DNA from: Oceanicola sp. 502str15
Lineage (GTDB): Bacteria > Pseudomonadota > Alphaproteobacteria > Rhodobacterales > Rhodobacteraceae
Direction: 5' to 3'
Length of the DNA stretch: 64,000 nt
Assembly: GCF_024105635.1 (NCBI RefSeq)
Contig: NZ_WYDQ01000001.1
Coordinates: forward strand, 3,906,501 to 3,970,500
The position numbers were made by a program, and so were the translations under genes. The notes beneath the pieces are model-generated. The model did no database searches. It was given only the letters and a program-made list of their open reading frames with translations, and had not been told where the DNA came from. Numbering within the stretch: the first letter of the stretch is position 1; every line of letters begins with the position of its first letter. This document shows positions 44,776-64,000 of the stretch, in pieces.

Positions 44776-44905
44776 CGGCCCCTCCGTCTGATCTGGCAGT
44801 CATGGGTATATGCCCCAGTTTGACGAATGGCCAGTCGTAAGATACATCATACTGATGAGGCAGGTCAGTCGTTTCTGCCACCGAGCAGTGCAAAGGAGGC
44901 CCAAA

Positions 44906-46207
44906 ATGGCCCAACAGAATATCGAGATGATCGCTATTGGCGATCTCACCCCTTGGGCAGCGAATGCTCGAACCCATTCGAAGAAGCAGGTCCGGCAGAT
45001 CGCCGACAGTATCGGGACCTTCGGGTGCACCAACCCGGTGCTGATCGACGAGCGGCGACGCATCCTTGCGGGCCATGGCCGGGTTGCGGCCGCACAGCTG
45101 CTCGGCTGGACCGAGGTTCCGTGCCTTCGCATCGAGCACATGAGCGAGGCGGAGAAGCGGGCCTACGTGCTGGCCGACAACAAGCTGGCGCTGAATGCGG
45201 GCTGGGACGACGACTTGCTGGCGGCCGAACTCGGTGCGCTGATGTCTGAGGACCTCGACTTCGACATCGGGGTGACCGGCTTCTCGATCCCGGAGATCGA
45301 CAACCTGCTGGAGACCGTCGCGCCCGAGGAGGACGGGGCGCCGGAGGATGACCTACTGCCGGAGGCCGCGCCCCGGCGGGTCACCCCCGGGGATGTCTGG
45401 CAGCTCGGGCGGCACCGCCTGGTCTGCGGGGATGCGCTGGACGCGGAGACAGTGTCAGCGTTGATGCGCGGGGAGCAGGCCCGGATGGTGTTCTGTGACC
45501 CGCCCTACAACGTGAAGATCGATGGGCACGTCGGCAACTCCGGCAAGATCCAGCACCGGGAGTTCGCAATGGCTTCGGGCGAGATGAGTGAGCCGGAGTT
45601 CACGGCCTTCCTCCGCAGAGCCTTCCAGCACCTGGCCGAACACAGTGTCGATGGCTCCATCCACTTCCTCTGCATGGACTGGCGCCACATGGCCGAGATG
45701 CTTGCGGCGGGGCAGGGGGTCTACGACGAGCTTAAGAACCTGATCGTCTGGGCCAAGGACAACGGCGGGATGGGGAGTTTCTACCGCTCTCTCCACGAGC
45801 TCATCTTCGTGTTCAAGAAGGGCAGGGCGCCACACATCAACACCTTCGAGCTCGGTCAGCACGGGCGCTACCGGACAAATGTCTGGGAGTATCGCGGGGT
45901 GAACTCCCGCCATGCGGGCCGCATGGAAGAGCTGGCGCTGCATCCCACTGTGAAGCCGGTGCAGATGATCGCCGATGCGATCCGCGATGTCTCGGGACGG
46001 GGGGACATCGTGCTCGACATCTTCGGTGGGTCAGGCTCGACCCTCATTGCTGCCGAAAAGACGGGGCGTCGGGGATACCTTTGCGAGCTGGACCCGATCT
46101 ACTGCGACCGGATCCTGGCGCGTTGGGAAACCTTCGCGAAGGACGAGGCGGAGCAACTGGTCTGCGGCTGGTCTGCCAAGCCCGATCTGAAGGTTGCGGC
46201 CGAATGA
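44906..46207 (+). CDS. ParB-domain / site-specific DNA methyltransferase fusion
   Basis: A 433-aa protein from ATG 44906 (AAAGGAGG upstream). The N-terminal ParB/Srx-like domain contains NARTHSKKQVRQIADSIGTFGCTNPVLIDERRRILAGHGRVAAAQLLG and VLADNKLALNAGWDD. The C-terminal N6-adenine/N4-cytosine methyltransferase domain has DPPY (MVFCDPPYNVKIDG) before the SAM motif (VLDIFGGSGSTLIAAEKTGRRGYLCELDP). That motif order indicates the beta class. No restriction enzyme is nearby. Such fusions are typical of prophages and ICEs of alphaproteobacteria. It is followed with overlap by a DUF5681 gene. Confidence 0.9.
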   Translation: MAQQNIEMIAIGDLTPWAANARTHSKKQVRQIADSIGTFGCTNPVLIDERRRILAGHGRVAAAQLLGWTEVPCLRIEHMSEAEKRAYVLADNKLALNAGWDDDLLAAELGALMSEDLDFDIGVTGFSIPEIDNLLETVAPEEDGAPEDDLLPEAAPRRVTPGDVWQLGRHRLVCGDALDAETVSALMRGEQARMVFCDPPYNVKIDGHVGNSGKIQHREFAMASGEMSEPEFTAFLRRAFQHLAEHSVDGSIHFLCMDWRHMAEMLAAGQGVYDELKNLIVWAKDNGGMGSFYRSLHELIFVFKKGRAPHINTFELGQHGRYRTNVWEYRGVNSRHAGRMEELALHPTVKPVQMIADAIRDVSGRGDIVLDIFGGSGSTLIAAEKTGRRGYLCELDPIYCDRILARWETFAKDEAEQLVCGWSAKPDLKVAAE

Positions 46208-46905
46208 GCGGGGCAGGCAAGAAGGGACCGGGGGAGCAGCTCGTGCCGGTCGCACAGGCAAGTTATGAAGTCGGCTACGGCAAGCCGCCGAAGCACGGCC
46301 AGTTCCAGCCGGGGCAATCGGGCAATCCGAAAGGGCGGCCGCGTGGTGCGAAGAACAAGCGGCCCGGTCTCCACGAAGAACGGTTGAAGGACATCATCCT
46401 CGACGAGGCCTACCGTGGCATCACGGTCCGTGACGGCGCCCGCAACGTGACAATCCCGATGGCCCAGGCGATTGTCCGCGCCATGGCCGTCAACGCGGCC
46501 AAGGGCCAGCACCGATCACAGCGCCTCTTTGCGGAATTGCTTGCCGCCACCGAAACCTCCCGCAAGCAGCTGCACGATGCCTACTTCGACAAGGCGCTGA
46601 CCTACAAGCTGGAGTGGGAGGCGGAACTGCGCCGCCGCGAAACGCTGGGCATCACCTATCTGCCGGAGCCGATCCCGCACCCCGACCAGATCGTTCTCGA
46701 CATGCGCGAAGGCACCGTCCGGATCACCGGGCCGATGACACGGGAAGACAAGGCGCTCTATGACCGATGGCAAGCCGACGTGCCGAAGATCCGGGAGGCG
46801 GTGGAGGAACTGAAGGTGGCGCTGGAGGACGAGGAGGACCCGCAGGAGCGGGCGGAGATCAAAAGGCACATCAGACTTGGGGAGAGAATGTTGGAACCCC
46901 GGTAG
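46204..46905 (+). CDS. DUF5681 domain-containing protein
   Basis: A 233-aa protein with the DUF5681 signature GQFQPGQSGNPKGRPRGAKNK near residue 36. A charged helical C-terminus follows (IREAVEELKVALEDEEDPQERAEIKRHI). In my knowledge of phage-like regions this family lies between ParB-methyltransferases and large-terminase genes, but here nothing phage-like follows. It starts within the methyltransferase stop (ATGA). It is the last gene of the island; the function is unknown. Confidence 0.85.
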   Translation: MSGAGKKGPGEQLVPVAQASYEVGYGKPPKHGQFQPGQSGNPKGRPRGAKNKRPGLHEERLKDIILDEAYRGITVRDGARNVTIPMAQAIVRAMAVNAAKGQHRSQRLFAELLAATETSRKQLHDAYFDKALTYKLEWEAELRRRETLGITYLPEPIPHPDQIVLDMREGTVRITGPMTREDKALYDRWQADVPKIREAVEELKVALEDEEDPQERAEIKRHIRLGERMLEPR

Positions 46906-51382: not shown

Positions 51383-52384
51383 TCAGGCGCCCGCGATCCC
51401 GGTCGTGCGTTCAAGGATATCCACGCCCTGCGTCTTCCAGAAGTGCAGAAGGTCGATGAAAATCCAGTTCTCCGCCAGCTTGTCGCCCTCGCGCCGGTAG
51501 ATGTCGATCACCCGCATCTCGCCGGGCTTGTCCGAGCCGGGCATCCCCATGAAACCGCCGGTGTGACGGGCGGTAAAGTTTGGCCAGCCGAAGAAGCCGC
51601 CGTAATGGCCTTCGGCAAGGCGTGCGAGGTGGCGGGTCTTGGAGCGGTCGGTGAAAGCCGCGCGGAAAGGGGCCGAGTGCTGCTTTGCATAACGCTCGAT
51701 CGTGTAGGTCGCGCCAATCCCGGCGGGGCCCCACCAGATCATGTCATCGGCCCATGTGAGCGCCAGTTCCTCCTCCAGCGGCAGGCCAGATTGCCAAGTG
51801 CCCAGGTCTCCGATCATCGCGTTGATCGCGGCGAGCGTGGCCCGGCTTTCGGCCTCCGATGCGTCGTCATGGAGTAGCCCGTCATGGGTCTGCGGTCCGG
51901 GCTGAACGAGGTGGGCCGCGGTCTGGGGCGGAAAGGGGTTGAGTCCGGTCTGCATCATCAGGTGCGGGATATCGAAGAACATGGCGGTCTCGGCAATGCG
52001 GCCACCCTCGATGCGGTTGAACTCGCAATAGCGCAGAAAAACCATCTTGCCGGTCGGGGCGATGCCGAGCCACGGCTGGTCGAACAGGCCCATCAAGTGC
52101 CCCATCGACACCACCCACACGCCCGCAAACCCGTCGATCTCGTTGCGCCCGGCAAAGAAGATATCCTCCCGTCGCTGCAAGCGCGACAGGGCGCGGCGAA
52201 GGGGCTGCCAGAAGCGCTCGGCCACGGCCTCCGGGCCGGTCAGCTCGCCGAAAGGGTGGAAGCCCCGCCAGAGTGCGTCAGGCTCCATCGATTCGGCCAG
52301 GACGCCCCCGATCCGGTCCGCCTCAGCGCCATCGAGTGCCGCATACAGAACTCGCACGACGCCCTTTTCCTGCTGGAAATTCAT
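51383..52384 (-). CDS. Two-domain SnoaL/NTF2-like protein A
   Basis: About 333 aa from ATG 52384 with GGGGAGG upstream. It contains two NTF2/SnoaL-like domains. The first ends GIAPTGKMVFLRYCEFNRIEGGRIAETAMFFDIPHLMMQTG (about residues 100-145). The second ends with GEMRVIDIYRREGDKLAENWIFIDLLHFWKTQGVDIL. The same terminal motif (TGK, E/D-F, G-R/K-I, D-hydrophobic, QxGxD) recurs in three other proteins of this locus. SnoaL-type domains act as cyclases, isomerases or hydratases. It is divergent from the ABC importer operon under two LacI operators. Confidence 0.8.
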   Translation of the reverse strand: MNFQQEKGVVRVLYAALDGAEADRIGGVLAESMEPDALWRGFHPFGELTGPEAVAERFWQPLRRALSRLQRREDIFFAGRNEIDGFAGVWVVSMGHLMGLFDQPWLGIAPTGKMVFLRYCEFNRIEGGRIAETAMFFDIPHLMMQTGLNPFPPQTAAHLVQPGPQTHDGLLHDDASEAESRATLAAINAMIGDLGTWQSGLPLEEELALTWADDMIWWGPAGIGATYTIERYAKQHSAPFRAAFTDRSKTRHLARLAEGHYGGFFGWPNFTARHTGGFMGMPGSDKPGEMRVIDIYRREGDKLAENWIFIDLLHFWKTQGVDILERTTGIAGA

Positions 52385-52400
52385 GGCCCTCCCCATCATA

Positions 52401-52416
52401 TTGCATACGCTTGCAA
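52401..52416. promoter_or_regulatory. Predicted LacI operator 1
   Basis: TTGCATACGCTTGCAA is a LacI-family operator-like palindrome (TTGCANNCGNNTGCAA). Its reverse complement matches 52456-52471 in 15 of 16 positions. It lies 16 bases upstream of the minus-strand SnoaL gene start. Confidence 0.72.
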
Positions 52417-52455
52417 AAAATTCTTGCCAAATCCCCGGCACCGAGTCTAGCCTTT

Positions 52456-52471
52456 TTGCAAGCGCATGCAA
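52456..52471. promoter_or_regulatory. Predicted LacI operator 2
   Basis: TTGCAAGCGCATGCAA, the second palindrome, lies 33 bases before the ABC ATPase start. Centre-to-centre distance from operator 1 is 55 bases, suitable for one tetramer or two dimers acting on both divergent promoters. Confidence 0.72.
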
Positions 52472-52504
52472 AACTGCGACCAGTCACGCCTAGGGGAGGC
52501 CCAA

Positions 52505-53554
52505 ATGGCCGAGATACAGCTTCGCAATGTCAGCAAACGGTGGGGCAGCTTTGTCGGGGTCGACGATTTCGACCTGACGATCGCGGACCGCGAGTTTCTG
52601 GTGCTGCTCGGGCCCTCGGGCTGCGGCAAGACCACCACTATGCGGATGATCGCGGGGCTTGAAGACCCCAGCGACGGCGAGATCTGGATCGGCGAGCGCA
52701 AGGTCAACGACCTGGAGCCGAAAGACCGCGACGTGGCGATGGTGTTCCAGAGCTACGCGCTCTACCCCAACCTCAACGTTTACGAGAACATCCGCTTTCC
52801 GCTGAAAGTCCGCGGCATCGACCCGGCAACCCATGACGAAAAGGTGCGCCGCGCCAGCGCGATGGTCGAGTTGGATGAGTTCCTGCACCGCAAACCGGCA
52901 GAGCTTTCGGGCGGCCAGCGCCAGCGCGTCGCGCTGGCCCGTGCCATCGTTCGCGAGCCCAACGTCTTCCTGATGGACGAGCCGCTGTCGAACCTCGACG
53001 CCAAGCTGCGGGTTTCCACACGGGCGCAGATCAAGAACCTGTCCCACGAGCTGTCCGTAACCACGATCTACGTCACCCACGACCAGATCGAGGCGATGAC
53101 CCTCGCGGACCGCGTGGTGGTGATGGAAAAGGGCATCGTCCAGCAGGTCGGCAGCCCGACCGAGATCTACGACAACCCCGCCAACACCTTCGTCGCCAGC
53201 TTCATCGGCTCACCGGCGATGAACCTGATCGAAGGCTCCTTGGCGGGTGGCAGCTTCACCGCGCCGGAGACCCGGATCGACGGGCTCTCCGCCCCCGATG
53301 GCAAGATCACCCTGGGCTTTCGGGCAGAGGATGCGCAGGTCGTCGCAAGTGACGGACAGATCAATGCGCCGATCTACACGCTCGAGCTTCTGGGCGATGC
53401 CACCATGGTCACCGTTCGCATTGGCAAGACGCTGGTCAGCGTCCGCGCCGACAAGGCCTTCCGCGCCGAGATCCACGACATGGTGTCGATCCAGGTGCCC
53501 CACGATCACTGCCACCTGTTCGACGGTCAGACCGGCCAGCGGATCGGGGCCTGA
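52505..53554 (+). CDS. CUT1-type sugar ABC transporter ATPase (UgpC/MsmX/MalK-like)
   Basis: A 349-aa ABC ATPase with a C-terminal MalK-type (TOBE) regulatory region. Walker A is LLGPSGCGKTTTMRM, Q-loop VFQSYALYPNLNVYENIRFPL, signature LSGGQRQRVALARAI, Walker B VFLMDEPLSNLDAKLR and H-loop YVTHDQIEAMTLAD. The C-terminal part includes LGFRAEDAQVV and YTLELLGDATMVTVRIG. It energises uptake of a carbohydrate or polyol-like solute. It is first gene of the LacI-controlled plus-strand operon. Confidence 0.9.
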   Translation: MAEIQLRNVSKRWGSFVGVDDFDLTIADREFLVLLGPSGCGKTTTMRMIAGLEDPSDGEIWIGERKVNDLEPKDRDVAMVFQSYALYPNLNVYENIRFPLKVRGIDPATHDEKVRRASAMVELDEFLHRKPAELSGGQRQRVALARAIVREPNVFLMDEPLSNLDAKLRVSTRAQIKNLSHELSVTTIYVTHDQIEAMTLADRVVVMEKGIVQQVGSPTEIYDNPANTFVASFIGSPAMNLIEGSLAGGSFTAPETRIDGLSAPDGKITLGFRAEDAQVVASDGQINAPIYTLELLGDATMVTVRIGKTLVSVRADKAFRAEIHDMVSIQVPHDHCHLFDGQTGQRIGA

Positions 53555-53646
53555 GAGGTTTTCGCCTCCGGGGCCACCCCGGGTGCGGTCAGCGGATGCG
53601 TGAAAACAGGGCGTGTCCAGTCCAACAGAAACGCAGGGAGAATGAC

Positions 53647-54903
53647 ATGTTTCTGAAGAAGATCGCCATCACCGGCCTTGTCGCGGGCCTGATGTCCACC
53701 ACCGCCCATGCCGAAGGCCATGCCGCCATGTGCGGCCCCGAAGGCCAGAGCATCCGCATCCTCGCCTCCGATTTCCCGGCGATCCACGCGGTTGCCGATG
53801 CCGCGGAGCAGAACTGCGGTGCGCAGGCCGCCGAATTCACCCGCAACCACACCACCGAGGCGCGCCAGATCATGAACGCCGCGCTGACGCCGAACCCGGC
53901 GGAATACACCTCGGTAATCGTCGCAAACTCGACCCTCACCCAGCTGATGAACGATGGCCTCGTTCGCCCGCTGAACGACCTGGTCGAGAAGTACGGTCAG
54001 AACCTGCCGAAAAACCTGATGATCACCCTTGATGGAAACATCATGGCCGTGGCCTTCATGGCGAATTCGCAGCACCTCTTCTCGCGCAAGGACATCCTTG
54101 CCGAAGTGGGCATCGACACGGTTCCGGCAACCTATGGCGAGGTCATCGCCGCCGCCAAGGCGATCCGTGAGGCCGGGATCATGGAACATCCCCTCGTGAT
54201 GAACATGCAGACCGGCTGGAACGTGGGTGAAACCTTCAACCTCGTGTTCATGGCCCATGGTGGTGAGTTCTTCAAACCGGGCACGGCGGAGCCGGCAATC
54301 AACAGCCCCGCGGGCGTTGCGGCGCTGGCCACGCTTAAGGAGCTTGTCGAATACGCCCACCCCGACCATCTGACCCAGGCCTCCAACGAGACCCAGGGCC
54401 TCTGGGAGGCCGGTCAGGCCGCTCTGGGCATCATGTGGGGCTCGCGCGGCGCGCCGATCCTTGATGACGAGGGCTCGACAGAGGAAATCACCTCGAACAC
54501 GGTCCTGTCCGCAGCGCCATCGGTTGAGCCCGGCGGCGTGCCCGGCGCGACCCTGTGGTGGGACGGCTTTACCATCTCGACCAACATCTCCGACGCAGAA
54601 GCCGAGGCGACCTTTGCCGCGCTGGCCTCCGGCCTGACTGCGGAGATGGTCGCGGCCAACAACGATGATGCGGTCTGGCTGCTGGAAGGCTTCAAGCCCG
54701 GGCCCGCCGCCGCGGGTGTCGCCGCCACGGCGCAGGGCGGGGCAAAGCCCTACCCGATGATCCCGCAGATCGGGCTGATGCATAACGCTCTCGGGGCCGA
54801 ACTGTCCGACTTCCTGAAAGGCGGCGAGAGCGCCGAGAAGGCCCTCGCAGATGTCGAGGCCGCCTACATCACGGCCGCCAAGGAAGCCGGATTCCTCAAG
54901 TAA
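53647..54903 (+). CDS. ABC transporter substrate-binding protein, carbohydrate type
   Basis: A 418-aa family-1 periplasmic binding protein. The signal peptide is MFLKKIAITGLVAGLMSTTAHA, and the mature part begins EGHAAMCGPEGQSIRILASDFPAIHAV. SBP_bac_1-like features include LNDLVEKYGQ, YGEVIAAAKAIREAG, GMWGSRGAP-type hinge residues (ALGIMWGSRGAPILD) and VPGATLWWDGFTIS. The ligand is unknown. It is followed by a very strong hairpin before the permease genes. Confidence 0.88.
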   Translation: MFLKKIAITGLVAGLMSTTAHAEGHAAMCGPEGQSIRILASDFPAIHAVADAAEQNCGAQAAEFTRNHTTEARQIMNAALTPNPAEYTSVIVANSTLTQLMNDGLVRPLNDLVEKYGQNLPKNLMITLDGNIMAVAFMANSQHLFSRKDILAEVGIDTVPATYGEVIAAAKAIREAGIMEHPLVMNMQTGWNVGETFNLVFMAHGGEFFKPGTAEPAINSPAGVAALATLKELVEYAHPDHLTQASNETQGLWEAGQAALGIMWGSRGAPILDDEGSTEEITSNTVLSAAPSVEPGGVPGATLWWDGFTISTNISDAEAEATFAALASGLTAEMVAANNDDAVWLLEGFKPGPAAAGVAATAQGGAKPYPMIPQIGLMHNALGAELSDFLKGGESAEKALADVEAAYITAAKEAGFLK

Positions 54904-54910
54904 CCGACGC

Positions 54911-54940
54911 TCGGGAGGGGCGGCTCATCGCCCCTCCCGA
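54911..54940 (+). terminator. Intercistronic hairpin after the carbohydrate-type binding protein
   Basis: A perfect 12-bp stem, TCGGGAGGGGCG (54911-54922) with CGCCCCTCCCGA (54929-54940), and a 6-nt loop, seven bases after the stop. There is no T-run. It is the strongest of the four binding-protein/permease junction hairpins in this window. Confidence 0.65.
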
Positions 54941-54972
54941 ACACCTTCACCGCAACACTCGGGACGGACGCC

Positions 54973-56004
54973 ATGAAGCATCGCACCTTTTTCTGGTTCA
55001 TCCTGCCGACGCTCTCGGCGATGATCCTCTTCATCGCACTGCCCATCGTCTCGGTGTTCGTGCAATCCCTCTTCGTCGCCCATGAGCAGGTGCAGGTGGT
55101 GTCCGAAAGCTGCGGCCCCTTCGGCTGCACCGAAACCACCTCTGTCGACACCGAAGCCACCGCGAAGCTCCGTGAGGAACAGCCCCTGGGGCGCTTCAAC
55201 GGGCTGAACACCTACTTCAACCGCTCGCATCTTGCCATTTCCGATATCGGCGAGGCCTGGGCGAACACGAACAGCATGGGGGAATTCTGGCGCGAGGTGT
55301 ATAACCTGCCGTTCTACAACGCGCTGACCTTCACGCTGGTCTACACCTTCATCGTGACACCGCTGGTGCTGGTGCTGGGGCTGGCCATCGCCGTCGGGGT
55401 CAACAACCTTCCCGGCGCGCTGAAGGGCCTCGCGATCTTCATCTCGCTGCTGCCCTTTCTCGTCACCCCGCTGGTCGGCTCGCTGATCCTGTTCTGGATG
55501 GTCGACGGCGATGGCGTGATCGGGGCGACGATCCAGAACATCTTCAACGATCCCTCGCTCAGCCTGAAGGCCTCGACACCGCTGATGTGGACGATGCTCA
55601 TTGTCTACGGCGTCTGGCACACCCTGCCGTTCAGCTTCATCACCTTCTATGCGGGGCTGCAAACCGTCCCGGCCGACACGGTCGAAGCCGCCAAGATCGA
55701 CGGCGCCTCGAAGTGGCAGAGCCTGATCCATGTGATCGTGCCGCATCTGATGCCGCTGGTCTCCTTCGTGACGCTGATGCTGATCATGGACAACTTCCGC
55801 GTCTTCGAGCCGATAGTCAGCTTCTCCGCCGAAGCCCACGCCCGTTCCCTGAGCTGGATCATCTTCAACGACCTGCGCGAGAGCGGCAATCCGCTCTACG
55901 CTTCGGCAGGCGCGACATCGCTGCTCACGATCATCCTCGTGGTCATCCTGATGATGCCCGTCCTGATCCGCACATGGCGCGACTTCACCCGCAAAGCCCA
56001 CTGA
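54973..56004 (+). CDS. Sugar ABC transporter permease 1 (MalF-like)
   Basis: A 343-aa inner-membrane permease with an N-terminal helix, an about 80-aa periplasmic loop (SCGPFGCTETTSVDTEATAKL) and a five- to six-helix transport core. The coupling loop is VEAAKIDGASKWQSLIHVIVPHLMPLV. The Cys pair in SCGPFGC could form a periplasmic disulfide. It heterodimerises with the next gene's product. It is ten bases upstream of permease 2. Confidence 0.9.
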   Translation: MKHRTFFWFILPTLSAMILFIALPIVSVFVQSLFVAHEQVQVVSESCGPFGCTETTSVDTEATAKLREEQPLGRFNGLNTYFNRSHLAISDIGEAWANTNSMGEFWREVYNLPFYNALTFTLVYTFIVTPLVLVLGLAIAVGVNNLPGALKGLAIFISLLPFLVTPLVGSLILFWMVDGDGVIGATIQNIFNDPSLSLKASTPLMWTMLIVYGVWHTLPFSFITFYAGLQTVPADTVEAAKIDGASKWQSLIHVIVPHLMPLVSFVTLMLIMDNFRVFEPIVSFSAEAHARSLSWIIFNDLRESGNPLYASAGATSLLTIILVVILMMPVLIRTWRDFTRKAH

Positions 56005-56014
56005 GGAGACGATC

Positions 56015-56896
56015 ATGGCAACCGCAGCAGACTCCCGCCTGACCCCGCTCAAGATCGCCTCCTACGGCCTTGTCCTGCTCTGGCTCCTGATCGCGGCCTT
56101 CCCGTTCTTCTGGACCTTCTGGGGCAGTTTCAAGGTGCAGGCCGACTTCCTGTCGAAGGCCGACTGGATGAACGCGCTGAAAGGCACCAACACCATCGCC
56201 CAGACCGGCAGCGCCTTCACCACCGAGGCCTATCGCGGCGCCTGGGTCGACGAGAGCTTCTGGTTCAACTTCAAGAACACCGGCATCGTCGTCTTCTTCA
56301 CCGTGGTCATCTCCCTGACCTTCGGCACACTGGGCGGCTATGCGCTGGCTCGGTCCGGCTTCCGCTATGCATTCTGGATCCTGATGGCCGCGCTGGTGTT
56401 CCGCGCCATGCCGCATATCACGCTCGTCTCGGGCTATCTGCTGTGGTTCTTCGAGTGGAACGTCTGGGGCATCCTGCCCACGACCATCATCGTGCTCGTG
56501 GCGATCAACCAGCCCTTCACGCTTTGGATGCTGCACTCGTTCTTCAAGAACATCCCCAAGGACATGGACGAGAGCGCCATGGTCGACGGCTGCACCCGGT
56601 TCCAGGCCTTCTGGCATGTGATCGTGCCGGTCATGTGGCCGGGCGTAATCACCACCGGGCTGTTCAGCTTCCTGCTCGCCTACAACGATTTCACCGTGAC
56701 GGTGATGCTCCTGAGCGAGCAGAACGAAACCATCATTCCCGCCATCAACAGCTTCATGGGCACCACGCAGGTCGAGGGCAAGGTGATGTATGCCGTCGCC
56801 GCCGTGGTCTCGGCCACCGCGCCCCTGTTCCTGCTGATCATGTTCTTCCAGCGCCAGATCGTCAGCGGCCTGACCGCCGGCGCCGTGAAAGGGTAA
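56015..56896 (+). CDS. Sugar ABC transporter permease 2 (MalG-like)
   Basis: A 293-aa permease with six hydrophobic segments. Helix 1 is SYGLVLLWLLIAAFPFFWTFWGSF, and the coupling loop is DMDESAMVDGCTRFQAFWHVIVPVMWPG, a slightly divergent EAA motif. A loop of about 50 residues precedes the core. It ends four bases before the next gene's ATG. Confidence 0.9.
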   Translation: MATAADSRLTPLKIASYGLVLLWLLIAAFPFFWTFWGSFKVQADFLSKADWMNALKGTNTIAQTGSAFTTEAYRGAWVDESFWFNFKNTGIVVFFTVVISLTFGTLGGYALARSGFRYAFWILMAALVFRAMPHITLVSGYLLWFFEWNVWGILPTTIIVLVAINQPFTLWMLHSFFKNIPKDMDESAMVDGCTRFQAFWHVIVPVMWPGVITTGLFSFLLAYNDFTVTVMLLSEQNETIIPAINSFMGTTQVEGKVMYAVAAVVSATAPLFLLIMFFQRQIVSGLTAGAVKG

Positions 56897-56900
56897 CGAC

Positions 56901-57431
56901 ATGAAAGGCTCAAGACCCGAGCAGGCCGTCCTGTCCCGCGACACGGACATGGCCAAAACCGAAGAAACCCGCGCCGTGATCGAAGCCATGGTGGACGGTC
57001 TCAATGACCACCGGATCGACGATATCGGCCAGTTCTTTGCCGAGGGCTTCCGCTGGATGGGCAATGAGGGCTGCGGTACCAAGACCGGGCTACAGGAGTT
57101 TCAGGACAACTGGCAGCGCCCGTTTCAGGCTGCCTTCTCCAACAAGAGCTGCATCGATGAGGCCCGGCTTTACATGGGCGAATGGGCTGCAGCTTTCGGG
57201 CGGCAGGAGGCCACGCATTCCGGCCCCTTCATGGGGGTCGCGCCCACCGGCAAGCGCGTCACCATCCGTTACATGGATTTCTGGAAGGTCGAGGACGGCA
57301 AGATCACCGACAACTGGGTGATGGTCGATTTCCCCCACGTGCTGGCCCAGCTGGGCCATGACGTTTTCAACGGCGAAGGCTGGGAGGCCTTCGACCGGGG
57401 CGCAAAAGTGCCGCCCCGCCCCGCAAACTGA
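56901..57431 (+). CDS. Single-domain SnoaL/NTF2-like protein B
   Basis: A 176-aa protein (an inner ATG at 56949 would give 160 aa) with one SnoaL-like domain. ETRAVIEAMVDGLNDHRIDDIGQFFAEGFRWMGNEG is the cone-fold N-terminus. FMGVAPTGKRVTIRYMDFWKVEDGKITDNWVMVDFPHVLAQLGHDVF is the conserved C-terminal sheet, very close to the second domain of protein C. It is encoded between the permease and the HisD-like dehydrogenase, so it probably acts on an early intermediate. Confidence 0.82.
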   Translation: MKGSRPEQAVLSRDTDMAKTEETRAVIEAMVDGLNDHRIDDIGQFFAEGFRWMGNEGCGTKTGLQEFQDNWQRPFQAAFSNKSCIDEARLYMGEWAAAFGRQEATHSGPFMGVAPTGKRVTIRYMDFWKVEDGKITDNWVMVDFPHVLAQLGHDVFNGEGWEAFDRGAKVPPRPAN

Positions 57432-57443
57432 GGATCGAGACAG

Positions 57444-58754
57444 ATGAGCATCGAACGGATCAAGACATCAAAACCCGAAACCGCCCGCGCCGAGGATGAC
57501 GCCAAGGTGCACGGCATCGTGGAGGCGGGCCTCGCCGATATCGAAGCACGCGGCGACGCCGCCGTGCGCGAGATGAGCCAGAAGTTCGACAACTACAACC
57601 CCGAGAGCTTTCGGCTGACCCAAGGCCAGATCGAGGGGCTGATGTCCAAGGTCGCCGCCCGCGACATGGAGGACATCAAGTTCGCCCAAGCCCAGGTGAT
57701 GAACTTCGCCCGCGCCCAGCGAGATTCGATGAAGGATATCGAGGTAGAGACCCTGCCCGGCGTCATCCTCGGCCAAAAGAATATCCCCGTGCAGTCGGTG
57801 GGGTGCTACGTGCCCGCCGGCAAGTTCCCGATGGTCGCCTCGGCGCATATGTCGGTGGCAACTGCCACTGTTGCAGGCGTGCCGCGCATCGTCGCCGCCA
57901 CCGCTCCCTTCAGGGGCGAGCCGAACCCGGCGGTGATCGCCGCCATGCATCTGGGTGGGGCACATGAGATCTACGCGCTCGGCGGCATCCAGGCCATCGG
58001 CGCCATGGCGCTGGGCACCCAGACCATCGACCCCGTGCACATGCTCGTCGGCCCGGGCAATGCCTTCGTTGCCGAGGCCAAACGCCAGCTCTACGGCCGC
58101 GTCGGCATCGACCTCTTCGCCGGCCCGACCGAGACGATGGTGATCGCCGACGACACCGTGGATGCCGAGCTCTGCGCAACCGACCTGCTGGGCCAGGCCG
58201 AACATGGCTACAACTCGCCCGCCTGCCTTATCACCAATTCCCGCAGGCTGGCCGAAGAGACGCTCTCCGAGATCGACCGCCTGCTGCAGGTTCTGCCCAC
58301 GTCTGAAACCGCGCGCGCCTCCTGGGAGGACTACGGCGACGTGGTCCTCTGCGAGACCCACGAGGAGATGCTTCAGGTCGCCAACGACATGGCCTACGAG
58401 CACGTCCAGGTCATGACCGACCGCGACGACTGGTATCTGGAAAACATGCACAGCTACGGCGCGCTGTTCCTCGGCCCCCGCACCAACGTTGCCAACGGCG
58501 ACAAGGTGATCGGCACCAACCACACCCTGCCGACCAAGAAGGCCGGGCGCTACACCGGCGGGCTCTGGGTGGGCAAGTATCTGAAAACCCACAGCTACCA
58601 GAAGATCGTCACCGATGAGGCGGCGGCAATGATCGGTGAATACGGCTCGCGGCTCTGCATGCTTGAGGGCTTCGTGGGCCATGCCGAACAATGCAATATC
58701 CGCGTGCGCCGTTACGGCGGGCGCAATGTGGCTTATGGCACGGCGGCAGAGTGA
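57444..58754 (+). CDS. Histidinol-dehydrogenase-family oxidoreductase (HpsN-like)
   Basis: A 436-aa zinc- and NAD-dependent dehydrogenase of the HisD family. Zn ligands are recognisable as Gln and His in [17 protein letters not shown], Asp in [17 protein letters not shown] and a late His in [13 protein letters not shown]. The catalytic Glu-His pair is in [14 protein letters not shown]. Biosynthetic HisD sits with his genes, but here it lies in a catabolic operon. HisD paralogues in such operons include HpsN, sulfopropanediol 3-dehydrogenase. It would oxidise a terminal primary alcohol twice, to a carboxylate. Confidence 0.86.
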
Positions 58755-58759
58755 CAGAC

Positions 58760-59824
58760 ATGCGAGATGGAGTGATGGACGAACACACCGCCAACAAGAA
58801 GGCTCTAGCTCCGCTTCGGACGGCGATGAAAGACTTCGACGAGGGGGGTGTCCGCGCAGCCCTCGGCGCAGTCCTTGCCAGCGATGCGGTGATCCACATG
58901 CCGCACCCCTTCGGGGACTTCACCGGGCCGGATGCCTTCTATGATGCCTGCTATGCACCCTTGCTCGATGCCCTGCCGGATCTCGAACGCCGCGACTGGA
59001 TCGTGATGGCCGGGCCAGACGAGCACGGCGGCAACTGGGTCGGCTGCGGCGGGCACTACGTCGGCACCTTTGCCGGCCCCTGGCTCGACATTCCGCCGAC
59101 CGGGCATCTCGTTCACATGCGCTTCCACGAGTTCTACCGCTTCGAGCAGGGCCGCGTTGTCGAAATCCAGACCCTCTGGGACATTCCCGAGGTCATGATG
59201 CAGGCGGGCGCATGGCCAATGGCACCGAGCCTCGGGCTGGAATTCTGCATCCCCGGCCCCGCAACCCAGGACGGGATCATTCCCGGCCCGTGGGACGAGG
59301 GGAAATCACGAGCCTCGCAGCAGCATATCATCAACATGCTGACCCACATGAAGAAGCATCCCAAGCAGGGCGGCCCCGAGGTCATGGAAATGCCGCGCTT
59401 CTGGCACGAGCGGATGACATGGTACGGCCCCGCGGGCATCGGCACCGGACGCGGGATCGCGGGCTTCCGCAACTGGCACCAGATCCCGTTTCTGAACGGC
59501 ATGCCCGACCGCGGCCAGTACCTCGACGAGATCACCTATCACTTCTTCGGCGATGGCGATTACGCCGCCGTCACGGGCTGGCCCAACATGGTCCAAACCG
59601 TCACCCATGACGGCTGGATGGGCATCGCCCCGTCGGGCCGGAAAATCACCATGCGGTCACTGGATTTCTGGCGCCTGGAAAACGGCAGAATCCGCGAGAA
59701 CTGGGTCATGGTCGATATCCTCGACGCCTATCGTCAACTCGGGGTCGATGTTTTCGCTCGCCTGCGCGAGTTCAACAAGACCCGCGTGCCCGGCCGCATA
59801 CCCTTCCCGGTCGGGGAGGTCTGA
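58760..59824 (+). CDS. Two-domain SnoaL/NTF2-like protein C
   Basis: About 354 aa from ATG 58760 (ATG 58775 and GTG 58751 are alternatives). Domain 1 ends LDIPPTGHLVHMRFHEFYRFEQGRVVEIQTLWDIPEVMMQAG. A linker containing PGPATQDGIIPGPWDEGKSRA follows. Domain 2 ends MGIAPSGRKITMRSLDFWRLENGRIRENWVMVDILDAYRQLGVDVF. The linker resembles that of protein A (PGPQTHDGLLHDDASEAESRA), so A and C are paralogues from one two-domain ancestor. It overlaps the SDR gene by one base. Confidence 0.82.
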   Translation: MRDGVMDEHTANKKALAPLRTAMKDFDEGGVRAALGAVLASDAVIHMPHPFGDFTGPDAFYDACYAPLLDALPDLERRDWIVMAGPDEHGGNWVGCGGHYVGTFAGPWLDIPPTGHLVHMRFHEFYRFEQGRVVEIQTLWDIPEVMMQAGAWPMAPSLGLEFCIPGPATQDGIIPGPWDEGKSRASQQHIINMLTHMKKHPKQGGPEVMEMPRFWHERMTWYGPAGIGTGRGIAGFRNWHQIPFLNGMPDRGQYLDEITYHFFGDGDYAAVTGWPNMVQTVTHDGWMGIAPSGRKITMRSLDFWRLENGRIRENWVMVDILDAYRQLGVDVFARLREFNKTRVPGRIPFPVGEV

Positions 59825-60588
59825 TGGACCTGCCCCGCACACCCTCCTTCCGTCTCGACGGCAAACGCGCCTTGGTCGCCGGTGCCTCTTCGGGCATAGG
59901 CCAGGCCTGTGCGGTGGCACTGGCCGAGCATGGAGCAAACGTCACCCTGGCCGCGCGTTCAGCGGGCAAGCTTGCAGAACTGGCAGAGGCACTGACGGAA
60001 GCCGGGCATGCCGCCTCGGTCCTCGAACTGGATGTCTCCGACGTTGCGGCGACCGAGGCGACTGTTGCAGCTAATGATCCCTTCGACATATTGGTGAACT
60101 CTGCCGGTCTGGCCCGCCATTCTCCCGCGCTGAAAACCACGGAAGAGGACTTCGACGCCGCCAGCGACCTCAACGTGAAGGGCGCCTACTTTCTGACCCG
60201 TGCGGTTGCCAAGGGGCTGATCGAAGCTGGCAGGCCCGGATCGCTCATCAACATCTCCAGCCAGATGGCCAAGGTCGGCGGGGTTGATCGCGCCGTCTAT
60301 GCAGCCACCAAGCACGCCGTCGAGGGCTTTACGAAGTCGATGGCCATCGAGTGGGGGTCGCTGGGCATCCGCGTGAACACGATCTGCCCGACCTTCATCA
60401 TGACGCCGCTTGCCCAGCAAACCTTCGAACGGCCCGAGCGCCGTGCCTGGGTCGAGGAGAAGATCAAGCTGGGCCGCATCGGCGAAGTGGAGGACATCAT
60501 GGGCGCGGCGGTTTTCCTGGCCTCCGACGCGGCGGCGCTGATCACCGGCACCGCGCTCATGGTGGATGGCGGATGGACGTCGGATTGA
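59824..60588 (+). CDS. SDR-family dehydrogenase in the LacI locus
   Basis: A 254-aa classical SDR, gluconate-5-dehydrogenase-like. LVAGASSGIGQACAVALAEHG is the cofactor motif. NSAG is in ILVNSAGLARHS, the Ser in LINISSQMAKVGG and YxxxK in YAATK. The C-terminus LITGTALMVDGGWTSD is typical. It probably oxidises a secondary hydroxyl of the imported solute or of an intermediate. It ends 14 bases before the LacI start. Confidence 0.88.
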   Translation: MDLPRTPSFRLDGKRALVAGASSGIGQACAVALAEHGANVTLAARSAGKLAELAEALTEAGHAASVLELDVSDVAATEATVAANDPFDILVNSAGLARHSPALKTTEEDFDAASDLNVKGAYFLTRAVAKGLIEAGRPGSLINISSQMAKVGGVDRAVYAATKHAVEGFTKSMAIEWGSLGIRVNTICPTFIMTPLAQQTFERPERRAWVEEKIKLGRIGEVEDIMGAAVFLASDAAALITGTALMVDGGWTSD

Positions 60589-60601
60589 TGAGCGAGAGAG
60601 T

Positions 60602-61636
60602 ATGACCGATACCAAAATAACATCACTCGACGTAGCGCGGCTGGCGGGCGTCAGCCAATCGGCGGTCAGCCGGGTTTTCACTCCCGGGGCCTCGGCCTCC
60701 AAGAAAACCGTCGACAAGGTCCGCAAGGCCGCCGAGGAGCTGGGATATCGCCCCAACATTCTCGCCCGCGCCGTGGTCTCCGGCAAAAGCCGGATCATCG
60801 GCCTCGTGGTGGCTTATCTGGAGAACTATTTCTATCCCGAGGCGCTGGAGAAATTGTCGAATGCCCTGCAACGCGAAGGCTACCACGTCCTGATCTTCAT
60901 GGCCTCGCAGAAGGCGGGCAACATCGATGATGTCGTGGACGAGATGCTCGACTACCAGGTCGACGGGATCGTCTTTGCCTCTGTCGCAATGTCCTCCGAT
61001 ATCGCCGAGCGCTGTCAGAACGCAGGCGTGCCCGTGGTGCAATTCAACCGTTATGAGGACCGCGCGGGCATCGCCGCGATTACCTCCGACAACTTCGGCG
61101 GCGGCCGGAAGGTTGCCGAGTTTCTCCTGGCTGGCGGGCACGAGCGCATCGGTCATATCGCCGGTTGGGAGGGCGCCTCGACCCAGAGGGATCGGGAGTC
61201 GGGCTTCATGGCCGGGCTGTCGGCGGCGGGCCGGACCGTCTTTGCCCGCGAGGTCGGAAACTTCGATGTGGACCAGGCTCGCGAGGCGGCGCTGGCCATG
61301 TTCGATGTCCCGGCCGAGCAGCGCCCCGACGCGCTCTTTGTCGGCAACGACCACATGGCCTTCATGGCGATGGACGTGATCCGGCACGAGCTGGGCCTGA
61401 GCATCCCCGGCGACGTTTCGGTTGTCGGCTTCGATGACGTGCCGCCAGCCGCCTGGCTGTCCTACAACCTCACCACCGTGCGTCAGCGCGCCAACCTCAT
61501 GGTCGAAGAGACCGTCAAGGCGCTGCTCGCGCAGATCGAAACATTCGACACCGCAACCGCCACGAGCATCGCGCTGGAGGCGCCGCTGATCGTGCGGGGG
61601 TCGGCACGCATTCCCGAAGGATGGACGACGACATGA
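60602..61636 (+). CDS. LacI-family transcriptional regulator
   Basis: A 344-aa regulator. The LacI HTH is ITSLDVARLAGVSQSAVSRVFTPGASASKKTVDKVRKAAEELGYRPN (residues about 5-51), followed by the hinge ILARAVVSGKSRIIGLVV and a PBP1-type sensor domain (FDDVPPAAWLSYNLTTVRQ near the end). It is embedded within the operon it probably controls. The two TTGCANNCGNNTGCAA operators at 52401 and 52456 are its likely sites. Confidence 0.92.
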   Translation: MTDTKITSLDVARLAGVSQSAVSRVFTPGASASKKTVDKVRKAAEELGYRPNILARAVVSGKSRIIGLVVAYLENYFYPEALEKLSNALQREGYHVLIFMASQKAGNIDDVVDEMLDYQVDGIVFASVAMSSDIAERCQNAGVPVVQFNRYEDRAGIAAITSDNFGGGRKVAEFLLAGGHERIGHIAGWEGASTQRDRESGFMAGLSAAGRTVFAREVGNFDVDQAREAALAMFDVPAEQRPDALFVGNDHMAFMAMDVIRHELGLSIPGDVSVVGFDDVPPAAWLSYNLTTVRQRANLMVEETVKALLAQIETFDTATATSIALEAPLIVRGSARIPEGWTTT

Positions 61637-62634
61637 CCGCCCCGATGAAAGGCTTCGACCCGAAATTCTCCGACTTTCCCGATTACATTATCGGCATCAC
61701 CAAGGAGATCTGGGAAGATCGCGGCATCGCCACGCTGCACGATTACTACGCGCCCGAGATCGTGGTGCGCTCGCCCGCCTCCGTAGTCGTCGGCAACCAG
61801 GGCGTGATCGCCGCGACCATGGCGACGCTGGCCGAGTTCCCCGACCGCACGCTCTACGGCGAGGACGTGATCTGGTCGGGCGCGCCGGAGGAGGGCATGC
61901 TCTCCAGCCACCGACTGCATTCTACCGCCACCCACGCCAATCCCGGGGTCTACGGCGCGCCCACCGGCAAGCGGTTGCACTACCGCATCCTCGCCGACTG
62001 TCATGCCAAGGATAACCAGATCAACGATGAATGGCTGATCCGCGACCAGGGTGCCATCGTCCGCCAACTCGGCTGGGAGCCCAAGGACTACGCCCGCGAC
62101 CTTATCGCCCGCGAAGGCGGGCCGGAGCATTGCGTCAAGCCCTACACCCCCGCCAATGATGTCGAAGGCCCCTACAAGGGCACCGGCAATCAAAGCGAAT
62201 GGGGCGAGCGCCACGCCGATGTGCTCACCCGCATCATGAATGCCGATTTCACCGTGATCCCCAAGGCCTACGACCGCGGCGCCAACCTCTACTATCCCGG
62301 CGGGCTGGATACGCTGTCCTTCGATGGGGCAGACCGCTTCTGGATGGGCCTCCGCGCCTCCTTCCCCAACGCGAAATTCACCCTCCACCACACCATCGGC
62401 CGCGATGATCCCATGATGCCGCCCCGCTCGGCCCTGCGCTGGACCATGCACGGCAAGCATGAAGGCTGGGGCGGCTTCGGCACGCCCACCGGCGCGGAGG
62501 TCTTCGTGCTGGGCATCAGCCACATCGAATGGGGCGCGCTCGTGGGCGGTGAGCCCCGCATCCGCCGCGAATGGACGCTCTATGACGAGACCTCGATCTG
62601 GAAGCAGATCCTGCTCCAGACGGGCGACCTCTGA
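61633..62634 (+). CDS. Two-domain SnoaL/NTF2-like protein D
   Basis: About 333 aa from ATG 61633, overlapping the LacI stop (ATGA); an ATG at 61621 is possible. Domain 1 has TLHDYYAPEIVVRSPASVVVGNQGV and ends VYGAPTGKRLHYRILADCHAKDNQINDEWLIRDQGAIVRQLG. Domain 2 ends FGTPTGAEVFVLGISHIEWGALVGGEPRIRREWTLYDETSIWKQI. It is more distant from A-C but has the same order of elements. It contains an EW/DE-rich second site unlike simple cyclases. Confidence 0.78.
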   Translation: MTAPMKGFDPKFSDFPDYIIGITKEIWEDRGIATLHDYYAPEIVVRSPASVVVGNQGVIAATMATLAEFPDRTLYGEDVIWSGAPEEGMLSSHRLHSTATHANPGVYGAPTGKRLHYRILADCHAKDNQINDEWLIRDQGAIVRQLGWEPKDYARDLIAREGGPEHCVKPYTPANDVEGPYKGTGNQSEWGERHADVLTRIMNADFTVIPKAYDRGANLYYPGGLDTLSFDGADRFWMGLRASFPNAKFTLHHTIGRDDPMMPPRSALRWTMHGKHEGWGGFGTPTGAEVFVLGISHIEWGALVGGEPRIRREWTLYDETSIWKQILLQTGDL

Positions 62635-62777
62635 TGCTGCCTTGCCCGCAAGAGACCGCGCGGCGCTTTCACGCGCATCGCGCCGGGCTGCGGGCGCGGC
62701 GGCTCAACCTGCATCCGCCAGGCCAGGGGCCTCATGCCCCCACCTCACGGATACAGACAGAAGGACCACACAGATGA
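62634..62777 (+). CDS. Possible 47-aa small ORF bridging SnoaL D and the cupin
   Basis: An ATG overlaps the SnoaL D stop (TGATG) and its frame ends on a TGA that overlaps the cupin ATG (ATGA). The peptide MLPCPQETARRFHAHRAGLR and the rest are rich in Arg, His and Pro, with no recognised motif. It may serve only to carry ribosomes to the cupin start, or it may be chance in GC-rich DNA. Confidence 0.25.
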   Translation: MLPCPQETARRFHAHRAGLRARRLNLHPPGQGPHAPTSRIQTEGPHR

Positions 62778-63742
62778 CCCCGCATGAGATCGAAACCCGC
62801 ATCGTCCGCTACGGCGAGTTGCAACCCTGCAAGACCGCCTTCATCGACGCCCATACGCCCGGCAGCGACCAGAAGGAGAACTTCACCATCATCGGCGGCG
62901 GCGTGTCCGAGTCGCCCGACCAGCACGTTCACATCGCGCTGGCGCACGGCTTTAACATCGGCGCTGCGGGCCAGCCGCCCAAGTGCCGCAACTCGCTGCA
63001 CGATCACCACACCGCCGAGGCGTTCTTCGTGCTGTCGGGGCGCTGGCGCTTCTTCTGGGGCCGCTGGGGCACCGCAGGCGAGGTGGTGCTGGAAGAGGGC
63101 GACATCTTCAACATCCCCACCGGCATCTTCCGCGGTTTCGAGAATATCGGCACCGACTACGGGATGATCATGGCGATCCTCGGTGGCGATGATGCTGGCG
63201 GCGGCGTGATGTGGGCCCCGCAGGTGATCGAGGACGCCGCAGATCACGGGCTGGTGCTCGGCGAGGACGGCAAGCTCTATGACACCAAGCTCCAGCAGCG
63301 CTTGCCCGAGGGTGTTCGACCGATGCCGCTGATGTCCGAGGCGGAGCTTGCAAAGCGGCCCGAACCCAGCACCGCCGAGGTGCTGCCCAATCACGTCGCC
63401 CGCTACTGGGATATGGTGGCCCTGGCCGACAAGAATCCCTGCAAGGTGATCGGCGAACACGGGCTGCTGAAGGACAAACCCGGCTTCGAGGTGGACTTCG
63501 TCACCCGCGCGTCGGCCTCTGAGACAAAACACAGCCATGATCGTCCCTCTGTCCTGATGCCGGTCAAGGGCCACTGGCGAGTAGATTGGGACGGCGGCAC
63601 GACGACAATTGCGCCCGGCGACACGATGTCGGTGCCCGAAGGCCTCGCGCATAGCGCCGTGCCCTCCATGACCGGCGAAGCCGCGCTCTATCACATTGTC
63701 GGAACCAAAGATCCCGCCGGCCCGAGCTGGACCGCGACCTGA
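62774..63742 (+). CDS. Double-cupin protein
   Basis: A 322-aa bicupin. Cupin 1 has the metal motif in KCRNSLHDHHTAEAFFVLSGRWRFFWG and EEGDIFNIPTGIFRGFENIG (residues about 68-120). Cupin 2 has ASETKHSHDRPSVLMPVKGHWRVDWDGG and APGDTMSVPEGLAHSAV near the end. Both keep His residues suitable for metal binding. Relatives include dioxygenases, isomerases and dehydratases. In this operon a ring-cleaving or isomerising role is conceivable; the function is unknown. Confidence 0.82.
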   Translation: MTPHEIETRIVRYGELQPCKTAFIDAHTPGSDQKENFTIIGGGVSESPDQHVHIALAHGFNIGAAGQPPKCRNSLHDHHTAEAFFVLSGRWRFFWGRWGTAGEVVLEEGDIFNIPTGIFRGFENIGTDYGMIMAILGGDDAGGGVMWAPQVIEDAADHGLVLGEDGKLYDTKLQQRLPEGVRPMPLMSEAELAKRPEPSTAEVLPNHVARYWDMVALADKNPCKVIGEHGLLKDKPGFEVDFVTRASASETKHSHDRPSVLMPVKGHWRVDWDGGTTTIAPGDTMSVPEGLAHSAVPSMTGEAALYHIVGTKDPAGPSWTAT

Positions 63743-63761
63743 CAGCAGGGAGAGCGCCCCA

Positions 63762-63806
63762 ATGACCAAAACTCAAACATCTCATGCGGGCGCTTTGCCG
63801 CGATGA
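63762..63806 (+). CDS. Possible 14-aa leader ORF before the hydrolase
   Basis: MTKTQTSHAGALPR follows a GGGAGA ribosome site, and its TGA overlaps the hydrolase ATG at 63803. It could couple hydrolase translation or be the real but frameshifted N-terminus of the hydrolase. Confidence 0.3.
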   Translation: MTKTQTSHAGALPR

Positions 63807-64000
63807 CCCCGCTCCTCTTTCTGCCCGGCATGATGTGCCATGCGCGGCTCTTCGGTGCGCAAACCGCCTACTTCTCGGGCCGCCGCGCCGTGCATCATGC
63901 CCCGATATCGGGCGCCGAGAGCGTTCAGGCGCTGGCCGCATCGGTGCTTGCCGGTGCGCCGGAGCGGTTTGCACTGGCCGGTCTGTCGATGGGCGGCATC
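63803..64000 (+). CDS. Alpha/beta hydrolase, N-terminal part cut by window edge
   Basis: The 66 visible residues start MTPLLFLPGMMCHARLFGAQ (HG-like oxyanion turn PGMMC) and reach the nucleophile elbow FALAGLSMGGI at the window edge. This is an alpha/beta hydrolase. It probably cleaves an ester, lactone or C-C bond in the same pathway. The rest lies outside the window. Confidence 0.8.
   Translation, partial: MTPLLFLPGMMCHARLFGAQTAYFSGRRAVHHAPISGAESVQALAASVLAGAPERFALAGLSMGGI

Follow-up and report, generated by a model that had tools for sequence, protein, structure and literature searches.

The window analyzed in this study, a 64,000-nt stretch of the genome of Oceanicola sp. 502str15 (NZ_WYDQ01000001.1, positions 3,906,501–3,970,500, forward strand), contains at positions 51383–64000 a locus encoding an ABC importer, a LacI-family regulator, several putative catabolic enzymes and four SnoaL-like proteins (S1 to S4). 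This locus is a real, conserved catabolic system that could not be matched to any described pathway, which bears out the initial annotation of a LacI-type-controlled import and catabolic locus without a recognised pathway. A substrate is proposed with moderate confidence: the evidence leans somewhat towards a LacI-type-regulated operon importing and degrading mycosporine-like amino acids (MAAs; shinorine, porphyra-334, mycosporine-glycine).

Profile matches recovered all of the genes that had been named at the outset, i.e. those of the importer, HisD-like dehydrogenase, short-chain dehydrogenase/reductase (SDR), double cupin, alpha/beta hydrolase and LacI protein (Table 1). The count of four SnoaL proteins, three of them two-domain, was likewise correct, since S1, S3 and S4 each contain two stretches matching PF07366 and S2 a single one, giving seven domains. 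The SnoaL gene placed at position 56901 is present, but its start is probably at 56949. S1 is encoded on the minus strand, divergently from the importer operon on the plus strand.

The conservation of the locus was examined in a survey based on S4, which yielded 595 stretches, 577 of them confirmed. The best 80 of the 577, a selection skewed to close kin, were analyzed as loci (one contig, present under two names as L046 and L047, is counted twice among them), and the following counts refer to the 59 loci whose sequence extends far enough in either direction. The LacI, binding protein and permease genes were found in all 59, the cupin gene in 56, the SDR gene in 52, a MetE-like gene in 49, and the hydrolase and RraA genes in 48 each. 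A HisD-like gene accompanied by at least three SnoaL genes was present in 56 of these loci, and by at least four in 48, while all four SnoaL families occurred together in 44. The search for conserved neighborhoods holding a HisD-like gene and two or more SnoaL genes, which had been suggested as a check of the initial annotation, was thus positive in 56/59 loci. No flanking gene family recurred in more than 4 of the 80 loci. In a phylogenetic tree built without partial matches, and for this reason including just 12 S1 and 3 S5 sequences, S1, S3 (64 sequences), S4 (81) and S5 formed separate clades.

Among 149 genomes of the family to which the window belongs (one per genus), 52 encode the cupin, 49 an S1/S3-type SnoaL protein and 48 both, compared to 17.1 expected (hypergeometric P = 4e-33, a guide only, since this and the other P value given below ignore shared ancestry). 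S4 was detected in 23 of 398 sampled genomes of the phylum; its closest named relative among the matches listed comes from Vannielia litorea (96% identity).

The sequence TTGCANNCGNNTGCAA is present twice between S1 and the importer genes. The whole 4.44 Mb genome contains three such sites and no copy of the reversed control pattern. In the 80 related loci, 95 copies were found across 58 loci, and 70 of the 95 are located between the genes of S1 and the importer ATPase, compared to 0.2 expected from shuffled sequence. Therefore, S1 and the long operon are probably under the control of one switch, and the LacI protein encoded in this locus is predicted to bind these operators. The third genomic copy (C1:1717553) is surrounded by integrase-, recombinase- and reverse transcriptase-like open reading frames (ORFs; identified by eye); it was rejected as a real site and taken as a chance occurrence.

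The gene partners of S1 were analyzed in a sample of 197 genomes, whose family was taken as Vibrionaceae from 90–99% matches to the S1 protein of Vibrio europaeus. This orthologue, encoded by a plasmid, is 46.7% identical to S1 and 29.0% identical to S3. Its gene is grouped with those of an MFS transporter, a porin and a LacI protein, opposite genes that encode an L-serine ammonia-lyase and a symporter for sodium. An S1-type match was found in 48 of the 197 genomes, 37 of which have a close orthologue, and in 27 of these 37 an L-serine ammonia-lyase gene is located 4.3–4.7 kb from it. Three lyase matches were present in 20 of the 27 linked genomes; of the 149 genomes lacking S1, 6 had at least three. 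In 26 Vibrio-type S1 loci that were examined, the symporter and MFS genes are always beside S1, and the lyase gene in 18 cases; in L186 and L197 the S1–lyase block adjoins core genes. An S1-type match accompanies the core cupin in 25 of the 26 cupin-carrying genomes (6.3 expected, P = 2e-17), while 23 of the 48 genomes with S1 do not contain the cupin. Since nearly all cupin genomes carry S1 and many genomes have S1 alone, S1 looks like an early step, and the adjacency of the lyase together with the occurrence of S1 without the cupin points to the release of an amino acid as that step. In one locus without the lyase (L202, 11447–13791), the S1 block is followed, 83 bases past its LacI gene, by kbl-tdh genes (threonine to glycine), and glycine-cleavage genes adjoin the operon in three near-identical Rhodobacteraceae loci. 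In Vibrio sp. THAF191d (L153, 3856–5370) an ORF resembling DNA photolyases/cryptochromes (by eye) adjoins the symporter gene of this block, at the position taken by the serine lyase in other strains.

MAAs serve as sunscreens and are widespread in algae, corals and cyanobacteria; to our knowledge little is known of their breakdown by bacteria. Shinorine and porphyra-334 combine serine or threonine, glycine, an O-methyl group and a CH2OH group on a tertiary carbinol. According to a review (PMC3083659), Dunlap and Shick suggested that Vibrio harveyi converts shinorine and porphyra-334 into mycosporine-glycine by hydrolysis of their hydroxyamino acids. The review also states that mycosporine-glycine yields a beta-diketone and glycine in hot water. 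It is because the serine, glycine, O-methyl and CH2OH carbinol clues match the parts of shinorine, and because of the V. harveyi suggestion, that an MAA substrate is suggested here. Judged by titles, counts and abstract beginnings, the papers listed in one open-access library, which leaves most subscription papers and all preprints outside, describe neither this operon nor genes by which bacteria degrade MAAs.

In the proposed pathway, MAAs would be taken up by the ABC importer, and S1 would hydrolyse serine or threonine off the ring to give mycosporine-glycine. S2, S3 or S4 would then free glycine or further substituents, so that the beta-diketone deoxygadusol remains. The HisD-like enzyme, with NAD+, could turn the CH2OH group on the tertiary carbinol of the ring into COOH, and the bicupin, with O2, could open the 2-methoxy-1,3-diketone ring to a 2-oxo-acid methyl ester. 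With cleavage of the diketone beside the methoxy carbon, the product of these two steps would be the methyl ester of 4-carboxy-4-hydroxy-2-oxoadipate (CHA). The alpha/beta hydrolase would strip the methyl group from this ester (a possible alternative outlet being the MetE-like methyltransferase found in many relatives) and so release the free acid, on which CHA aldolases act; the RraA-type aldolase would finally split this acid into pyruvate and oxaloacetate.

Within the MAA proposal, amino-acid release by S1 is the strongest part and the ring chemistry the weakest. Vibrio genomes containing S1 but not the core would fit a partial conversion, and genomes with the core would go further. Further points in favor of the proposal are the MetE-like gene of 49/59 loci, the RraA protein with its Arg-Asp pair, and Ensifer NER9, which has no HisD gene in the 21 kb shown and encodes a 3-oxo-tetronate kinase (over the cut-off) and a 3-oxo-tetronate 4-phosphate decarboxylase (just under it), enzymes that would suit a product retaining its CH2OH group. 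A more far-reaching version, in which this complete MAA pathway is widely shared and two-domain SnoaL proteins hydrolyse amino acids off imine/enamine positions, one paralogue per substituent, before a HisD–cupin–esterase–aldolase core yields pyruvate and oxaloacetate, is offered more tentatively, its chances being judged a little short of even.

All four SnoaL proteins score above the PF07366 gathering threshold, and the Asp residue near the end of each domain is kept in at least 97% of the sequences (here and below, residues were counted in the best match per locus with a coverage of at least 80%; the S1 and S3 sets overlap partly). In these respects they resemble SnoaL-type polyketide cyclases, from which they differ in their catabolic setting, in the two-domain architecture of three of the four proteins and in falling far below the methyl ester cyclase model NF033407 (S2 40.4 and S3 19.1 against 200 bits; S1 and S4 gave no match). 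Catabolism is not without precedent for SnoaL-like proteins, since MgaD of the syringate pathway of Pseudomonas sp. NGC7 is a proposed SnoaL-like tautomerase (PMC12314914). The same source describes syringate/3-O-methylgallate catabolism in which ring cleavage beside the methoxy group, an alpha/beta hydrolase, the SnoaL-like protein and CHA aldolase act together to give pyruvate and oxaloacetate, the same ending as is predicted for the locus described here. In contrast, that system acts on an aromatic substrate, employs a LigAB-type dioxygenase and one SnoaL protein instead of four, and lacks a HisD-like enzyme. Pfam scans of the submitted operon proteins, with the rest of the genome not searched for this enzyme, revealed no LigAB-type ring-cleavage dioxygenase. 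In the initial annotation stepwise isomerisation, hydration or ring-opening of an imported polyhydroxylated or cyclic compound was put forward. The catabolic nature of the locus and its conserved neighborhood stand, but a ring function need not apply to all four proteins, considering the genomic partners of S1 (lyase nearby in 27/37 genomes, core cupin missing in 23/48).

The HisD-like protein matches PF00815 (E = 5.6e-129) and TIGR00069 (415.1 against a cut-off of 243.8), and no other histidine genes were seen in the operon. Its nearest solved chains are those of HpsN. The catalytic Glu318 and His319 and the zinc-ligand Asp352 of HpsN, at positions shared with histidinol dehydrogenases, correspond to E319, H320 and D353, which are kept in 86/86 HisD-like sequences, a set reaching down to 40% identity. 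The oxidation of a CH2OH group by this enzyme, already put forward in the initial annotation, is still plausible.

The cupin contains two Cupin_2 stretches and matches no solved structure by sequence. A model built from a single sequence (pLDDT 33.3) was discarded, whereas a model from 48 sequences (pLDDT 89.5) had quercetin dioxygenase as the nearest fold, tied with oxalate decarboxylase, seed storage proteins and salicylate/gentisate dioxygenases, a shared fold that does not show function. The hydrolase, whose Ser-Asp-His triad is conserved (73 sequences), resembles esterases and 3-oxoadipate enol-lactonase, with all matches under the cut-off. The RraA protein (PF03737, 44.1 against 24.5 bits) has Arg128-Asp129 in 68/68 sequences, a pair which we take to be the mark of HMG/CHA aldolases, and is compatible with a CHA-type aldolase; it differs from the known RraA-like enzymes in having by sequence one distant solved relative (3k4i). 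The MetE-like methyltransferase of the relatives (sequences down to 24% identity) keeps His243, Cys245 and Cys343, which may be read as a zinc site. In 18 of the 80 loci a gene for a small SAM-dependent methyltransferase is located between the cupin and MetE-like genes.

Several observations weigh against MAAs as the substrate. The metal site of quercetinase consists of three His and one Glu residues; of 87 bicupin sequences, all or nearly all retain H72, H74 and E78, but Arg116 occupies the place of the fourth ligand, usually a His, in 87/87, so that the quercetinase-type site is not found. The histidines of the second domain are not conserved; a three-histidine diketone dioxygenase using domain 2 was considered and rejected, since its HxH pair is kept in just 29/87 sequences. 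Because of the Arg at the metal-ligand position and these non-conserved histidines, the dioxygenase step is weakly supported, and ring opening by domain 1 is a guess. No match to the MetE-like protein was found in the genome containing the window. The lyase link is missing in 10 of the 37 Vibrionaceae genomes, and among 113 other loci scanned the lyase appeared in one, itself from V. europaeus. The single kbl-tdh case and the near-identical glycine-cleavage trio may each represent one chance event. Finally, the locus, shared by many marine bacteria, also has relatives in terrestrial ones (Priestia, Pantoea, Deinococcus, rhizobia), which would need fungal or cyanobacterial mycosporines or another substrate.

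The terrestrial carriers would also suit the catabolism of a conjugate other than an MAA that bears serine, threonine or glycine, from which S1 would free the amino acid, with the ring or chain left over then degraded by the core. The lyase link shows no more than that a serine-like product is plausible, and the amidase or carbon-nitrogen hydrolase genes present in several distant relatives would suit amide conjugates. This explanation, which we regard as unlikely, does not by itself account together for the MetE-like gene and the HisD/RraA pairing, and no equally well-matched candidate compound came to mind.

The presence of a LacI regulator with a UgpC-type importer, a combination typical of sugars and polyols, and a binding protein that weakly resembles sugar binders would point instead to a cyclic polyol, a sugar acid or a lactone as the compound degraded. 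The SnoaL proteins would then be ring tautomerases, dehydratases or hydratases, in keeping with the initial annotation and with the role proposed for MgaD, and the lyase link would concern the Vibrio branch only. The 3-oxo-tetronate kinase of Ensifer NER9 fits this explanation as well. Nevertheless, Vibrio genomes that have S1 alone and a serine lyase close to it are hard to account for in this way, and the core-type module of Klebsiella is without annotated SnoaL genes, so the core may not need them. Such a substrate is judged more doubtful still than a conjugate.

The sulfonates named earlier for ligand screening have become less likely. Catabolism of 2,3-dihydroxypropane-1-sulfonate (DHPS) employs HpsN, a HisD-fold enzyme performing a zinc-dependent four-electron oxidation of CH2OH beside a carbinol, in which, according to PMC11382572, His126 recognises the sulfonate and distinguishes DHPS enzymes from histidinol dehydrogenases. 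An HpsN-type pathway for a DHPS-like sulfonate is very improbable and was set aside: the zinc and catalytic positions are kept, and Lys354 equals the retained lysine that contacts the sulfonate in HpsN (same source), but the position of His126, as read from the alignment, is Met in 82/86 and Leu in 4/86 sequences, that of the window included, and no desulfonation family was present among the operon proteins scanned.

Table 1. Positions of genes and predicted operators in the locus (window coordinates).
Feature	Position	Strand	Basis
S1, two-domain SnoaL protein	51383..52399	-	PF07366, two stretches; start codon estimated from ORF
LacI-type operator TTGCATACGCTTGCAA	52401..52416		pattern search; predicted LacI site
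LacI-type operator TTGCAAGCGCATGCAA	52456..52471		pattern search; predicted LacI site
ABC importer ATPase, UgpC/MalK type	52505..53554	+	NF008653 over cut-off
ABC importer solute-binding protein	53641..54903	+	PF01547; weak similarity to sugar-binding proteins
ABC importer permease	54973..56004	+	PF00528
ABC importer permease, second	56015..56896	+	permease models, each under cut-off
S2, single-domain SnoaL protein	56949..57431	+	PF07366, one stretch; conserved Asp128
HisD-like alcohol dehydrogenase, proposed CH2OH to COOH	57444..58754	+	PF00815; TIGR00069 over cut-off; nearest solved relative HpsN
S3, two-domain SnoaL protein	58760..59824	+	PF07366, two stretches; Asp conserved in each domain
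SDR oxidoreductase	59824..60588	+	PF13561
LacI-family regulator	60602..61636	+	LacI-family models, each under cut-off
S4, two-domain SnoaL protein of second class	61633..62634	+	PF07366, two stretches; 14% identity to S1
Bicupin, proposed ring-opening dioxygenase	62774..63742	+	Cupin_2 twice; predicted-structure comparison
Alpha/beta hydrolase, proposed methyl esterase	63803..64498 (window ends 64000)	+	conserved Ser62, Asp182, His210
RraA-type aldolase	window-equivalent 64495-65190, just outside window		PF03737

Related modules, whole or partial, were identified in Pantoea, Deinococcus, Priestia, rhizobia, Vibrionaceae and the archaeon Halobellus, often with different transporters (TRAP, symporter and TonB types, named by eye). 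Within the stretches shown, SnoaL genes accompany an importer without the core in Vibrio pelagius and Phaeobacter piscinae, a Klebsiella record has the core without an annotated SnoaL gene, and Rhizorhabdus and Roseomonas have core parts. The plasmids of the latter three (L032, L033 and L031, respectively) carry cupin, alpha/beta hydrolase and HpcH-type aldolase genes with no annotated SnoaL gene shown, to which the Klebsiella plasmid adds HisD, SDR, MFS and LacI genes. Five consecutive genes annotated as ester cyclases, followed by a MetE-like gene, were observed on a Halobellus limi plasmid (L020, 8614–15007), where the row adjoins genes of an ABC importer and an aldehyde dehydrogenase. Genes for sarcosine oxidase subunits and purU are located beside the SnoaL–importer locus of V. 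pelagius (L019, 14818–20984).

The importer binding proteins and permeases of the 80 loci fall into groups of approximately 40%, 50–60% and 75–90% identity to those of the window, with little change in the enzymes, which would fit an exchange of the importer. A plasmid of Phaeobacter inhibens (L152) contains an apparent remnant of the locus, with the S3 match split in two and transposase genes around it. Upstream of the locus (window positions 44810–46905) are ORFs that by eye look like those of a ParB-type DNA methyltransferase and a phage-type protein, and in L010 (11849–13647) recombinase-like ORFs lie downstream. The operon may be placed in a mobile region.

The MAA proposal is directly testable with purified shinorine. 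If true, it would provide marker genes for MAA turnover in the sea and account for the reported V. harveyi suggestion. The SnoaL fold would gain a catabolic role, the breaking of C–N bonds, and many proteins labelled “ester cyclase” or “histidinol dehydrogenase” would be explained.

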